A stretch of 42,475 bases of DNA from Chthonomonadaceae bacterium. GTDB lineage: Bacteria > Armatimonadota > Chthonomonadetes > Chthonomonadales > Chthonomonadaceae. The notes below the pieces were generated by a model that ran no database searches, had not been told where the DNA came from, and saw only the letters and a program-made list of their open reading frames with translations. Each line of letters begins with the position of its first letter. Positions within the stretch are counted from its first letter, which is position 1. A program made the position numbers and the translations under genes. Below, one piece after another: positions 20,337 to 26,555 of the stretch. Where the stretch lies: the NCBI GenBank assembly GCA_027450145.1, contig DAIDKH010000019.1, positions 18,071 through 60,545 on the forward strand, written 5' to 3'.

Positions 20337-21584
20337 CTACCGGTCTATTTCACCAAGAATAATGTCAATGCTGCCGATAATGGCCACGACATCTGCAATT
20401 AGCCGTCCTCTGCACATGGATGAAAGTGATTGCAGGTTCATGAAGCATGGTGGCCGTAGATGCGCGCGCCACGGCCGATTTGAACCGTCGCTTACTATAT
20501 AAAAGCCTATTTCACCCTTAGGAGATTCGAGAGCCTGCCACGTCTCTCCCACTGGTGGGTGAAAACCTTCGGTCCACAGCTTAAAGTGGTGAATGACACC
20601 CTCCATACTGTTGTCGAGTTCCTGGCGGGGAGGCGGTACCACCTTCCGATCATCGGAGTTGATGGGACCAGCGGGAAGTCGCTGCAGCGCCTGCTTTACT
20701 ATCTCGCGACTTTGGTACATCTCAGCCATGCGTACCCTAAAGCGATCATAAACGTCGCTGAACTCGCCTGTGGGCACGTAGAAGTCGTATTGTTCGTAGC
20801 CGCAGTAGGGAGTTGCCTTACGAACGTCATACGGAATTCCGGCGGCGCGAAGCGTGGCACCGGTAATTCCAAGAGAAAGGCACTCCTCCCCTGAGATGAT
20901 CCCTACTCCTTGGGTACGCTCACGAAAGATGGGATTAGCGTGCAGCAGGGCTTCCATTTCGTCTAACTTGGCAGGAAAATCGTCGATAAACTTTGCTGCT
21001 CGTGCAACCCAGCCATCAGGTGCATCGCCTCTTAGGCCGCCTGGCACAATCCATGACGGCATCATTCGCACCCCGGACATCATCTCTACCAGGTCTAGAA
21101 TATACTCCCGTTGTTGCAGTGCATAGAAATAGACCGTCATCGCGCCAAGGTCCAACAGGTGCGTTCCCAGCCACACAAGATGGCTCGCAATGCGCTGCAA
21201 CTCCATGAGTATTACACGAAGTACTTGGCCCCTTTCAGGAATCTCTATGTCTAGCAGCTTTTCAACTGAAAACGTGAAAGCAGCGTTATTGATTAACGCG
21301 GAAACGTAGTCCATGCGGTCTGTTAGGGGCACCGCTTTCATGTACGTGTTGTACTCTATAGTTTTTTCAATTCCAGTATGAACGTACCCCACATGAGGAG
21401 TTGCGCTTAAGATGGTTTCACCATCTAATTCAAGCACCACTCGCAAAACGCCATGAGTACTGGGATGCTGCGGCCCCATATTGACAACCATAGTAGTATC
21501 ATCAATGGCATCAATTTGTACGCCGGACGCACTGGTTACCGGAATCTCTATCTCTGCCGAGGCAGATGTTTCGGATGTGGTCAT
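20337..21584 (-). CDS. nuoD: NADH-quinone oxidoreductase subunit D
   Basis: The 49-kDa-type subunit of complex I, forming with NuoB the quinone-binding site. Landmarks: NMGPQHPSTHGVLRVVLELD, the quinone-site His loop (about residues 34-53), HVGYVHTGIEKTIEYNTY, DRMDYVSALINN, ERTQGVGIISGEECLSLGITG, and the C-terminal block IGFYIVSDGSNRPWRAHLRPPCFMNLQ ending with SIDIILGEIDR. The 415-residue length is right for a separate NuoD. There is an acidic 30-residue N-terminal lead before the conserved start. It lies 24 bases after nuoC. Confidence 0.96.
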   Translation of the reverse strand: MTTSETSASAEIEIPVTSASGVQIDAIDDTTMVVNMGPQHPSTHGVLRVVLELDGETILSATPHVGYVHTGIEKTIEYNTYMKAVPLTDRMDYVSALINNAAFTFSVEKLLDIEIPERGQVLRVILMELQRIASHLVWLGTHLLDLGAMTVYFYALQQREYILDLVEMMSGVRMMPSWIVPGGLRGDAPDGWVARAAKFIDDFPAKLDEMEALLHANPIFRERTQGVGIISGEECLSLGITGATLRAAGIPYDVRKATPYCGYEQYDFYVPTGEFSDVYDRFRVRMAEMYQSREIVKQALQRLPAGPINSDDRKVVPPPRQELDNSMEGVIHHFKLWTEGFHPPVGETWQALESPKGEIGFYIVSDGSNRPWRAHLRPPCFMNLQSLSSMCRGRLIADVVAIIGSIDIILGEIDR

Positions 21585-21608
21585 ACTGATACAGTCCTTA
21601 CTAAATCG

Positions 21609-22304
21609 TCAATGCCCATTGGGATCAGCCGGAGCAATCTGCGGCGTCGGTGGTGCATGGTGGTCAAACAGATGCTGTTCACCTTTCACGTCGCCGGTTT
21701 TACCGTGGTACGATTCGCCCGGATGCTGCACCGGTACCTCGCTGACTGCCGGCCCGAACTTCCCGTTCGGGAACTGTACTCGTTCCCCGCCAAGTGGATA
21801 ATCTTTGCGCTGCGGGTGTCCTATCCAGTCATCGGACATCAATATTCTGCGAAGGTCCGGGTGCCCCTCAAACTTCACACCGAACATGTCGTAGACTTCT
21901 CGCTCCGGAAATGCAGCTCCTGCGTACACTGCGGTCACGGTTGGTACCACGGTATCGGTTTCTGGAACGCGCACTTTAACGAATATCCGCTTGTTGTTAC
22001 CAACTAACGTCCCGTCTTTTTCGTATTGGACCGAAAACAGATTGTAAACAACTTCGAATCTGTGCGTTTCAAATTTGTCAAGGTAGTCCACGCCTAAACA
22101 TTCAGAAAACAGGCTATACTGGCAGGTTACATCGTCGCGTAAGACCTTGAGAACATTTGCTATTTCGGCACGTTCAACAGTTAGTCGTAAGTCGCCTCGA
22201 AAGTGCTCTACAAGTAAGATTGCACCAGGCACGGCTGCCTCAATCGCAGAGACCTCCGGTATAATCGGTTCGGCAATCGGGGTTTCATTTTCGGTATCGC
22301 TCAT
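21609..22304 (-). CDS. nuoC: NADH-quinone oxidoreductase subunit C
   Basis: The 30-kDa-type peripheral-arm subunit of complex I. The conserved segments are CQYSLFSECLGVDYL, FEVVYNLFSVQYEK and the signature FPEREVYDMFGVKFEGHPDLRRILMSDDWIGHPQRKDYPL (about residues 131-170). The last 60 residues (HLFDHHAPPTPQIAPADPNGH) form a Pro/His-rich tail beyond the normal end. Its ATG shares one base with the nuoA stop. In most genomes nuoB lies between nuoA and nuoC; here the two abut, leaving no room for it. Confidence 0.95.
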   Translation of the reverse strand: MSDTENETPIAEPIIPEVSAIEAAVPGAILLVEHFRGDLRLTVERAEIANVLKVLRDDVTCQYSLFSECLGVDYLDKFETHRFEVVYNLFSVQYEKDGTLVGNNKRIFVKVRVPETDTVVPTVTAVYAGAAFPEREVYDMFGVKFEGHPDLRRILMSDDWIGHPQRKDYPLGGERVQFPNGKFGPAVSEVPVQHPGESYHGKTGDVKGEQHLFDHHAPPTPQIAPADPNGH

Positions 22305-22903
22305 TACTTAACACCACCTATCGCGCGAGACGCCTGTTTAGAATATTCTGGCCGTCCGCCCTCAGGAGTGAGAAATTGGTGCTCTTCCTGAGATGACGCT
22401 CCATAGGTGGGTACACGCGGACCAATCTGCAAGTTCGTCAAATCAGTTGGACCGGATTTCTCATTTCCAAATCTTAAAGCAGGCCGAGGAGCGAGGATCG
22501 CCTTCGAAGGAGCCTCTTTGTACCGCGCCAGCTCACTCTCTTCCCAGTCGAGCGCACCGCTTCCGATTAAGTAAAAATAACCAACGAACAAGATCGCCAC
22601 AAACACGGCCATTTCTACAAAGTTAAATATCTTTAGATTTAACGACAGATCGCCGTAGGCTACTGCCCACGGGTAAAGAAAGATGGTCTCAATATCAAAT
22701 ACAATGAATAGCATTGCAATGAGGTAAAACTTCACTGGAAACCGCTGTCGGGCATTTCCAACAGGTCGCATGCCACATTCGTAAGCTTCCGATTTAACGG
22801 CACCTGGCTTTTTAGGGCCTAGAAAAAGCGAGCCAAACACCATTACACCCGCAATAACAGCGGCAACGCAAATCATCACCATGATGGGAATGTAGCTGTA
22901 CAC
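22304..22903 (-). CDS. nuoA: NADH-quinone oxidoreductase subunit A, with C-terminal extension
   Basis: Small membrane subunit of complex I. Three membrane segments (about residues 6-28, 58-78 and 88-112) and the conserved loop [20 protein letters not shown] with YECG, plus [15 protein letters not shown], identify NuoA. Typical NuoA is about 115-140 residues; this one is 199, with about 75 extra hydrophilic residues after the third helix (from [15 protein letters not shown] on) that resemble no domain I know. It is the first gene of the nuo run, behind a -10 element at 22983-22988. GGGAGAAG lies upstream of the ATG. Confidence 0.93.
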
Positions 22904-23048: not shown

Positions 23049-24257
23049 TTAACCCTCGTTTTCATTCCTGCCGCCCATCTTTATGCCTGGTAACCTGCCT
23101 ACAGGATGGGCTCTATTAAGTGCGAGACCGGGCAAAGTCACGGATTTTGAATGCTCATGGGAGTTATCGGTAATATGGACGTCATGAACGAGGCACATCA
23201 TGAAGCCTATGCCGCCACCCAATAAACCAGCCGCCCAGAGACGCTCAAGTTGGTATGGATCGTACATCGTAGCGGCGAACACATAACCGGTCACTGCCCC
23301 TACCCCAAGCATCACCCACGATAACCAACCAGACTCCATCCCCCGCACTTTGAACCGCGCAGAGGCGCCAATGAACATTCCCATCACTGCGAATCCACAC
23401 ATGTGCGAAATATCGTTAAATATGTCGAATGATAAAGTACCCTGGGTGACGGACGCTATTTCGGTCAACAACCAGCCAACGAATATAAAAGCCACCTGAG
23501 CCACGAATCCTGCAGCACTGAACAACGCCAGCGCCCGAATGTACGAGCGTATTTTTAGTCGCTGTTCCGGATCATTGGCTGGTGTCGTGCGCCAACGCAC
23601 AAATTCAATTGCCGGCAGCAAAGGAGCCAATACGAATGCGGTCCAGGCAGCGCATATGAGGCAAGCAACAATTGCTGACCAAATTGACGATATGCTAAAT
23701 CCTGGATTGGTATCTAAGGAGAACGAATCGACTGCAACTCGAGTTCCGGCCTGCGACAGGGTGCCACCGAAGTAGCTATAGTGGCCGTTATTATTCACTG
23801 TAACATGGAACTGACTACCGCGAACCTTGTCGTGTTGCGCAAAATACGTAACGTAAACCTGATAGACCCCTGGAGGAGCAGCTCCGTAGGGCCAAACAAT
23901 ATGCTCCACGGGCTGACGAGTAAGGTTATACACGCTTGCATTTGCGTCCACATCAAGCCGCCCACCCGTTGGCGACCGCTTTTCTCCATACCAAATTCGA
24001 TCTCCTTTTGGGTCGATGCAAGAGAGATCGAGATCATTTTTGTTGTGCCATTCCAGAGTAATTTCGACCTCACCAGGGTGGCCGCCTGCTGCAAGAACTC
24101 TGCGGTTTGTAAGTGTTGGTAGGACTAGTATTGGTTGTCCAATTTCTGTCGCAGTGGTATCGAACCCGGTAGATCTAATCAGTCTGTTCCCAATGAGAGC
24201 CATGCCGACACATGCAACAATCCCAACAATTGCAAATAATAGCCGATAACGCAACAT
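23049..24257 (-). CDS. Membrane protein with YfaP/DUF2135-like extracytoplasmic domain
   Basis: A 402-residue protein of unknown function. An N-terminal membrane segment (about residues 6-24) precedes a beta-rich domain (about 55-175) that resembles YfaP/DUF2135: EITLEWHNKNDLDLSCIDPK, IWYGEKRSPTGGRLDVDANA, and PPGVYQVYVTYFAQH, the usual D-L-D-L...I-x-Y...G-x-L-D-x-D...G-x-Y-x-V-x-V pattern. The C-terminal half has six or so membrane segments (about residues 190-375), including GGGIGFMMCLV. It is the last gene of a three-gene minus-strand operon behind a vWA protein and a coiled-coil polytopic protein. YfaP-type domains often accompany vWA proteins; a joint cell-envelope complex is inference. 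Confidence 0.72.
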   Translation of the reverse strand: MLRYRLLFAIVGIVACVGMALIGNRLIRSTGFDTTATEIGQPILVLPTLTNRRVLAAGGHPGEVEITLEWHNKNDLDLSCIDPKGDRIWYGEKRSPTGGRLDVDANASVYNLTRQPVEHIVWPYGAAPPGVYQVYVTYFAQHDKVRGSQFHVTVNNNGHYSYFGGTLSQAGTRVAVDSFSLDTNPGFSISSIWSAIVACLICAAWTAFVLAPLLPAIEFVRWRTTPANDPEQRLKIRSYIRALALFSAAGFVAQVAFIFVGWLLTEIASVTQGTLSFDIFNDISHMCGFAVMGMFIGASARFKVRGMESGWLSWVMLGVGAVTGYVFAATMYDPYQLERLWAAGLLGGGIGFMMCLVHDVHITDNSHEHSKSVTLPGLALNRAHPVGRLPGIKMGGRNENEG

Positions 24258-24274
24258 CTATTGTAAGGCCCTTA

Positions 24275-25825
24275 CTACCTGCCGAACAGTCGATTAAGCA
24301 AGCCGGTATTGCGCTGAGGTATAGGAGGTACAGGCGCAGGCCCGGACCGGCGCTGCAGGGGTTCCTTTCTATCTAAAATCTCCTCAATCATTTCATTCAA
24401 GCGGTTCATCTCACCTACCGCCGCTGCCCGAGAGGCAACAGCTCTCTCGGTAGCTTCGGCCGGAAGATTTGTATTCTGCAGCGCAGTTCGTCGCTCTGTA
24501 AGTACAGCAACCTCCTGCTGCAGGTATGCAACCCGATCTGCGGACTTATCGGCCTTGTGTGCAAGTGATAGCGCGTTTCGCACATTCGGATCCTTTCGGA
24601 ACTCGGCTTCCCAGCGCCTCTGCATATGACGTAACCATGAGTCACGCATATTGTCAGAGGCATCTCTCCAGGTGTGAGTAGCCTTGTACAATAAGTACGG
24701 TCCGCTTATTAGCGTGCCTATGAGCATATACACCACGAGCGGTTCGTCAACCGGCGCTGGGGTATTAGCGCCCTTAAATCGCATTTCCCTCGTAACTTCC
24801 TGCGCATGCAGCATCCGCAACCCTAGTCCTTCTGCGGTAATCTCGCCAGTTGCAAGAATCAAGCAAAGGGCGGCAGCGACAGCAGTCATAGGGCTCGCAA
24901 ATCTAAATCTCGGTGACTGGCGTGGGGCCTCATCGTACTGCTCCTGATTACCAGCTGCAAGACCAATTACTGTTCGCACTACCTCACCCATCAGATAGAC
25001 AATGACGAACCCCAGCGCGGCTGAGAGTGCCAATCGCGGTAAGCCATCCGGCCGAAGAATAGTGTCAATATCAAGAAGGCCGATCAGCGTTCCCAAACAC
25101 ACCGCCAGAAGCAGACCTGCCACTAGTGGTGCAATAATCTGCATAAAAATTGCGACAGTGAGGTCAGCCGGACCCTCTTTTTTGGGACGGAGAATACCAT
25201 GCTGCCCTGCAATCTCCTCGGTAGTGGGGAGTAGTTCGTTAATAGAGTCCTCCACGCCGTGCGTGAATCGCGTGCTAGGTGTGAGGTCCCCACCGTCTCC
25301 TGAAGCGGCTTGGGTCGATTTACTATCCGTGAATACTGCAAGGCCGGCAGTGGCCATGGCTTCTGCAAGGCTCATTTGAAGTTGCGCAAATTCGTCAGAT
25401 GCACTGGAATACTGCGATTGTTTGGCGGTAAGAGTTTGGTTGACCGCCTCCAAATCGCGCTGCGATTGGTCGAGAATCTCCTGCCTCAGCGCTTTATTTG
25501 CCAGATTAACCTCGCGATGCTCAGCGGCCGCAGCGAGTGCACGAGTTTGATAGTGCCATTGTAATCCTAGCGCGCGCCCGGGATGCTCGTTCAACAGTTT
25601 GGCAAAACCGTCAATTAATTTGCCTGCTTCTTGATTATCAACTTGTTGATCCGGTGCTAGGAGTGCCGGAGGTATGTGCCACACCACCTCATCCTGAGGA
25701 ACAGAGTGCCAGAAAAGGTCGTTCTGTCCATGAACTGTGGCGCGATTGACAAAATCCGTGGGCTGGGTCGGCTTTGCACCATTTACAACGGCGAAATCGG
25801 TGGCGACTGTCTCGGAACTGTCCAA
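24275..25825 (-). CDS. Polytopic membrane protein with two coiled-coil regions, unknown
   Basis: No family recognised. About 516 residues: a soluble N-terminal part; a first coiled-coil-like stretch around residues 105-165 (LRQEILDQSQRDLEAVNQTL); four hydrophobic segments between about 225 and 390 (IAPLVAGLLLAVCLGTLIGL; LALSAALGFVIVYLMGEVV; MTAVAAALCLILATG; LVVYMLIGTLISGPYLLY); then a second coiled-coil-like stretch (YLQQEVAVLTERRTAL; NRLNEMIEEILDRKEPL) and a Pro-rich end. Start: TTG 25825 has GGAGG 8 bases upstream and sits just after the vWA stop. The ATG at 25852, inside the vWA gene, gives 9 more residues but has no Shine-Dalgarno. Middle gene of the vWA / coiled-coil / YfaP-like operon. 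Confidence 0.75.
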   Translation of the reverse strand: MDSSETVATDFAVVNGAKPTQPTDFVNRATVHGQNDLFWHSVPQDEVVWHIPPALLAPDQQVDNQEAGKLIDGFAKLLNEHPGRALGLQWHYQTRALAAAAEHREVNLANKALRQEILDQSQRDLEAVNQTLTAKQSQYSSASDEFAQLQMSLAEAMATAGLAVFTDSKSTQAASGDGGDLTPSTRFTHGVEDSINELLPTTEEIAGQHGILRPKKEGPADLTVAIFMQIIAPLVAGLLLAVCLGTLIGLLDIDTILRPDGLPRLALSAALGFVIVYLMGEVVRTVIGLAAGNQEQYDEAPRQSPRFRFASPMTAVAAALCLILATGEITAEGLGLRMLHAQEVTREMRFKGANTPAPVDEPLVVYMLIGTLISGPYLLYKATHTWRDASDNMRDSWLRHMQRRWEAEFRKDPNVRNALSLAHKADKSADRVAYLQQEVAVLTERRTALQNTNLPAEATERAVASRAAAVGEMNRLNEMIEEILDRKEPLQRRSGPAPVPPIPQRNTGLLNRLFGR

Positions 25826-25826
25826 C

Positions 25827-26555
25827 TTAGGCACCTCCAGATCTGTTGGCATTTAGCAAGGCGGTAAGATCACTCAGTGCCTCTGCTCCATCATCGCGAC
25901 TAGAGATGATCAGTCTTCTGCCTAGAAGCGGGCGCCATCGACGATCGATCAATGATCGAAAACCGTTGGAGTCGCTGACCCCACAAAACCAGACGGCTTT
26001 GACGTCCGGATTTGTGGCTATAGTGGTAAGTGCGCGTTTGGTTTCCTGCGGGGCCTGGTCCTCGCCATCGGTAAGCAACATCACTATGGCAGGTCTATTC
26101 CGTTTGCGATCCTCGTTTAGTCTAGGAATCATGTTCTTTAACGCAATTCCCGGATGTGTGCCAAACGTCGTAGGGTGTAGTGCCATAATGGAGTCTTCAG
26201 TCGGCCAAAGATCGTTTATCCGTGTTGGCACCGTGTCAGCGAATTGATGTGCATTTACATCAAACGACCAAAAGACAACGTGTGAGCCATGTGGCAATGC
26301 TTCATCAACAGTTTGATCGAGCAAACCGAACACAGACTCGCGCTTAGATTTATGCACGCTCAGGGTATCATCCGCACCAACAAGAAGGTCGTCTGGGCGG
26401 GAATGACCGGCTCGCGATAGAAGATAAGCTGAGCCTGCCACTGCGAGGAGTACGAGGCTCATCGCTGTGATTGCTGCCATCAATTCGGGGGAACGGCGTG
26501 GCCGTCCTGAACCGCTTGTCGAATTAGGTGTGTCGTCCGCTCGCCGTTTCGCCAT
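25827..26555 (-). CDS. Membrane-anchored vWA-domain protein
   Basis: From ATG 26555 (GGAGGGAG 5 bases upstream; an open frame extends to 26588) the protein has 242 residues. A short basic head (MAKRRADDTPN) is followed by one membrane segment (about residues 27-47, AAITAMSLVLLAVAGSAYLL) and an extracytoplasmic von Willebrand A domain. The metal-ion site is visible as DDTLSV (D-x-T-x-S, a variant of D-x-S-x-S), with TTFGTHPGIALKN supplying the distal Thr and VMLLTDGEDQ the late Asp (TDGE). A metal-dependent binding role, scaffolding partners at the envelope, is expected from the family. It heads a three-gene operon whose other members are unknown membrane proteins. Confidence 0.8.
   Translation of the reverse strand: MAKRRADDTPNSTSGSGRPRRSPELMAAITAMSLVLLAVAGSAYLLSRAGHSRPDDLLVGADDTLSVHKSKRESVFGLLDQTVDEALPHGSHVVFWSFDVNAHQFADTVPTRINDLWPTEDSIMALHPTTFGTHPGIALKNMIPRLNEDRKRNRPAIVMLLTDGEDQAPQETKRALTTIATNPDVKAVWFCGVSDSNGFRSLIDRRWRPLLGRRLIISSRDDGAEALSDLTALLNANRSGGA

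Follow-up and report, generated by a model that had tools for sequence, protein, structure and literature searches.

A conserved vWA, polytopic and YfaP-like gene trio of Armatimonadota that probably encodes a previously undescribed cell-envelope complex

Parts of the locus described here can be compared with three described groups of proteins. In E. coli, YfaP is encoded beside yfaQ, yfaS, yfaT and yfaA; our literature search found no functional study of YfaP or of the DUF2135 domain. Ter proteins are cytosolic. Binding of Ca2+ has been reported for TerD (Pan et al. 2011, as cited in the accessible text of PMC8779313). MoxR-vWA ternary systems and Bat-type MoxR-vWA operons are compact and consist of a vWA core with its partners, and some described systems include extracellular vWA proteins with transmembrane (TM) helices (accessible text of Kaur et al. 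2020, PMC7159879).

We examined three co-directional, tightly coupled genes on the minus strand at 23049-26555 of the window, the whole 42,475-nucleotide stretch of Chthonomonadaceae DNA that was analysed. They encode a vWA protein, a polytopic protein designated MID and a YfaP-like protein designated YFAP, and are laid out as follows.

25827..26555, minus strand: gene 1, vWA protein, from the ATG at 26555 to the stop at 25827, 242 aa
26561..26566, minus strand: ribosome-binding site GGAGGG of gene 1, 5 nt upstream of the ATG, read from the sequence
24275..25825, minus strand: gene 2, MID, TTG start, 516 aa
25834..25838, minus strand: ribosome-binding site GGAGG of gene 2, within the end of the vWA gene, 8 nt before the TTG
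23049..24257, minus strand: gene 3, YFAP, 402 aa
23712..24077, minus strand: YfaP-like extracytoplasmic domain of YFAP, residues 61-182

The TTG of MID lies 1 nt past the vWA stop codon TAA, and 17 nt separate the MID stop from the YFAP start. The coordinates, the coupling, the TTG start, the GGAGG inside the vWA gene and the 17-nt gap had all been proposed in a first-pass annotation of this DNA, and each was verified on the sequence. The TTG start is kept in both congeners and the GGAGG in one of them (L013), and across 14 trios the sizes of the two intergenic gaps lie between about -65 and +26 nt with ORF starts as listed. Differences between congeners amounted to 0.62-0.69 per codon at third positions versus 0.09-0.27 at second positions, and the reading frames were unbroken. 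As this third-position excess was observed in all three genes, they are real genes under selection. A promoter and terminator scan of the trio gave no signal above shuffled controls. The trio is flanked in the source genome by nuoA on one side and a GNAT-like gene on the other. Homologues of nuoA, nuoC and nuoD (window 20337-22903) lie on the same strand, 145 bp downstream of the trio in the source genus, an arrangement not seen in other genera.

MID was present in 29 of 291 Armatimonadota genomes, and full-length YFAP in 22 of the 291, distributed over 11 genera and three families. All 22 full-length YFAP genes adjoin a MID gene on the same contig, and the arrangement is therefore far beyond chance. 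The vWA gene was verified beside MID, in the same order, in 19 trios. The genes flanking the trio differ from genus to genus and are mostly ordinary genes of the chromosome; where the flanks were read, none was recognised as a conserved fourth member. Pairwise distances taken from the three gene trees correlate with r of 0.86-0.97, a value to which shared species history contributes. The trio is thus one conserved evolutionary unit, inherited together across families, and the co-occurrence that the first-pass annotation had proposed as a check was found throughout these 11 genera. Within the source family MID occurs in only some genera, which indicates that the system is not essential or is frequently lost. 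A GTDB scan found relatives only in Chthonomonadales, the scan being insensitive enough to have missed known f29 trios. Relatives were found neither in plasmid and phage collections searched with tblastn nor in IMG/VR, and the PADLOC anti-phage defence profiles gave zero matches for all three proteins. No description of a system with this trio was found in the profile libraries or the literature searched, in agreement with the earlier statement that none was known. We conclude that the trio probably represents a real, previously undescribed cell-envelope complex.

The vWA protein consists of one N-terminal membrane helix and a vWA domain predicted to be extracytoplasmic, in which the MIDAS residues are D62, T64, S66, T133 and D163. 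The DxSxS/DxTxS motif is thus present together with the conserved Thr and Asp. When 20 relatives were aligned, D62, T133 and D163 were invariant, Thr or Ser occupied position 64 in all, and S66 was found in most. The source protein matches the Pfam VWA_3 and vWA-TerF-like profiles weakly, and its relatives match VWA more strongly. Versions that resemble lipoproteins, judged by sequence, occur at L018, L021, L062 and L066. A separate lipoprotein-like vWA gene is also found close to the trio in some f29 loci (L053:6893-7942).

The AF2 model and hydropathy of MID indicate a core of four membrane helices, flanked at either end by long, coiled-coil-like helices that are predicted to be cytosolic. 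The AF2 models of MID and YFAP were built from seven sequences each. That of MID is all helical (mean pLDDT 73, pTM 0.49) and comprises a 79-residue helix at 83-161, then the four membrane helices, the last of which is followed by further long helices (residue 1 is the codon that precedes the TTG). The first-pass annotation had placed coiled coils at both ends of the four-helix core. The four helices were recovered, and a heptad pattern was detected across the family, at the two ends in 13/20 and 12/20 members and in the membrane region of 0/20, the combined p-values overstating its strength because the members are related; in the source protein taken alone the signal was not significant. An acidic residue, Glu or Asp, occupies position 333 in 19 of the 20 members, where the third membrane helix reaches its outer end. 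No family in Pfam or NCBIfam matched MID above the cut-off, PADLOC gave none, a sequence relative was not found in the PDB, and Foldseek returned no match with E below 0.001 in the PDB or BFVD. Matches obtained with VIA-align were generic long-helix proteins, among them weak matches to ABC-transporter helix bundles (Z about 7). No curated transporter profile scored above the cut-off on the source protein, and TatC matched 5/20 relatives with E of 0.0019 at best. A place for MID in a known transporter system had been named as grounds against the system being new, and no known transporter family was matched.

YFAP is composed of an N-terminal helix, a YfaP-like beta-sandwich predicted to be extracytoplasmic and a glycine-rich, multi-helix C-terminal membrane domain. 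With about 4-5 C-terminal helices in addition to the N-terminal one the protein is polytopic, a property absent from the first-pass annotation. The AF2 model (mean pLDDT 66) shows the beta-sandwich at 61-182, followed by helices. Six residues of the YfaP-like domain, D75, D77, D102, D104, N106 and E118, are invariant among 17 aligned members. YFAP is a homologue of YfaP from E. coli: hhalign gave 98% over 92 columns and a one-sequence HMMER search a domain E of 1e-14, confirming the YfaP-like assignment. The Pfam profile PF09906 (DUF2135) scored 14.8 bits on the source YFAP, where the gathering score is 22, and matched 15/17 relatives weakly. A PDB sequence search with the YfaP-like domain returned noise. 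All three proteins have the membrane anchors proposed in the first-pass annotation, and two carry predicted extracytoplasmic domains, a vWA domain with intact MIDAS residues and a YfaP-like domain.

YFAP and E. coli YfaP share the extracytoplasmic domain, whereas the multi-helix membrane domain is lacking in the E. coli sequence that was read, and the trio has a vWA gene and MID in place of yfa-type neighbours. The MoxR-vWA operons resemble the trio in their compactness and their vWA core, but the trio has no adjacent MoxR AAA+ gene and its vWA protein lacks attached effectors. Neither MID nor YFAP is among the MoxR-vWA partners given in the accessible text of Kaur et al. 2020 (PMC7159879). 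A linked MoxR AAA+ partner had been suggested at the outset. The contig carrying the trio (C19) encodes none, and the four AAA_3 proteins of the source genome lie on contigs C1, C4, C43 and C58. With no MoxR partner near the trio, the usual chaperone reading of vWA-MoxR pairs is not favoured.

A possible likeness to Ter proteins was suggested at the level of structure, alongside the weak vWA-TerF-like matches. When the modelled YfaP-like domain (from the model with mean pLDDT 66) was searched with VIA-align, three TerD-family chains ranked first with Z of 9.0, 8.4 and 8.2, the best being 3ibz (Z 9.0, rmsd 3.8 over 118 residues); plain Foldseek with the same domain did not rank TerD. The YfaP-like domain may, as a hypothesis drawn from the model, be TerD-like and bind cations. 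Homology to TerD by sequence was rejected, with an hhalign value of 1.8% (reversed-profile controls were lower still) and no PF02342 match to the source protein at E 1. TerD was not found in the source genome or its near relatives.

The glycine-rich membrane domain of YFAP recurs in FHA-domain membrane proteins (L115-L121, L125, L126). These proteins differ in having cytosolic FHA domains, which the trio lacks, and no MID partner was found for them in the loci read; they represent related modules in other proteins and not the trio itself. In one case a single protein combines a vWA domain, the glycine-rich TM domain and FHA (L120:4225-5988). The YfaP-like domain recurs in a YfaP-TM-FHA protein, whose gene directly follows a Ser/Thr kinase gene (L123:4948-7533). 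A third locus (L121:172-6547) contains a ubiquitin-like operon with two JAB proteins, RING-type proteins and an E2-like protein; next come an FHA membrane protein and then a lipoprotein of the YfaP-like type.

MID is the constant partner of the vWA gene in the loci read. Relatives of MID without YFAP adjoin a vWA gene at L021, L062, L068 and the divergent L065-L067; at L064 a short reading frame lies between the two genes, and at L063 the contig stops short of where the vWA gene would lie. The pair-only MID proteins form a clade of their own in the MID tree. As this clade is separate, the ancestral unit was probably vWA plus MID, with YFAP added once and later. Members of the trio clade without YFAP (L058 and L020, the latter on a short contig) look like secondary losses. 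The source genome itself contains a second vWA-MID pair, beside a sigma-70-family factor gene and two tandem YbjQ-like proteins (L021:2541-8874). A mobile element (L066:3861-10377) carries a divergent pair collinear with genes for a TrwB-like coupling ATPase, a serine recombinase and a Replic_Relax protein, and the pair at L065 is accompanied by a tyrosine integrase and ArdC. These mobile copies are the most divergent members. Downstream of the pair at L064 is a gene for a large helicase/PD-(D/E)XK nuclease-like protein (L064:8933-13111).

We propose, with a probability of roughly 40%, that the trio is a non-enzymatic, metal-dependent envelope sensor and scaffold. The vWA protein, MID and YFAP would form one inner-membrane complex, in which MID would build the membrane core together with the glycine-rich helices of YFAP. 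Two domains would be displayed outward, the vWA domain with a metal-binding MIDAS and the YfaP-like domain with its invariant acidic residues, which may likewise bind metal. An acidic ligand might be gripped by the MIDAS; it could be contributed by the YfaP-like domain or by the outer face of MID, where the conserved acid 333 is located. If a divalent cation or an envelope ligand were bound or lost, the four MID helices might pack differently, and this change would be passed on to the cytosolic helices of MID, which would serve as a docking platform. Family searches found no enzymatic output domain in the trio and no relative of known function for MID, and no charge bias strongly fixes the topology of its proteins. 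The first-pass annotation had suggested a candidate envelope assembly or surveillance complex; the evidence leans toward sensing or scaffolding.

A purely structural or adhesive scaffold without any signalling could account for part of these observations: the vWA and YfaP-like domains would attach to polymers of the cell wall or surface, and MID would anchor and cluster these domains. Both the vWA domain and beta-sandwiches of the YfaP-like type commonly serve in binding, the operon has no output enzyme, and the long helices of MID suit clustering. A simple anchor, however, has no need of the acid at position 333, and the membrane and YfaP-like domains of YFAP recur with FHA and kinase proteins. 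It is mainly this recurrence that leads us to prefer sensing over a passive scaffold, which we consider rather unlikely. The acid at 333 could instead belong to a gated pathway formed by the helices of MID, YFAP or both, with the outer domains regulating transport, and the weak similarity of the MID helices to ABC-transporter bundles points the same way. Z values under about 13 are nevertheless uninformative for helical bundles, no transporter family matched MID, and much of the protein consists of cytosolic helices, and we regard such a transport or channel complex as quite improbable.

The pairs at L066 and L065, with their recombination and transfer genes, and the patchy presence within the family would suit an origin of vWA-MID in mobile elements, in conjugation, surface exclusion or defence, with the trio as a settled descendant. 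Against this, the mobile copies are the divergent ones, the trio gene trees agree with one another, the flanks are mostly chromosomal, PADLOC found nothing, and plasmid, phage and viral collections gave no match; this origin seems to us just as improbable as a channel. That three unrelated genes came to lie next to the nuo cluster by chance might be imagined from the position of the trio upstream of nuoA in the source genus, but the same three genes are kept together next to other flanks across 11 genera and three families, and we reject it as having a negligible probability. Beyond the metal-dependent sensor and scaffold that we prefer, a broader proposal can be made, which we regard as speculative and, as a whole, unlikely. 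MID may found a new family of membrane transducers for outward vWA domains, the vWA-MID pair being a general envelope device on chromosomes and mobile elements alike, to which the single addition of YFAP would have given a calcium-sensing, TerD-like version.

The trio provides a conserved unit that can be tested, in a phylum with few characterised envelope systems. MID is a membrane protein family without a Pfam entry and, at nearly all loci read, partners an outward-facing vWA domain. In Armatimonadota the YfaP/DUF2135 domain is now linked to membrane signalling modules that contain FHA, Ser/Thr kinase and ubiquitin-like components.
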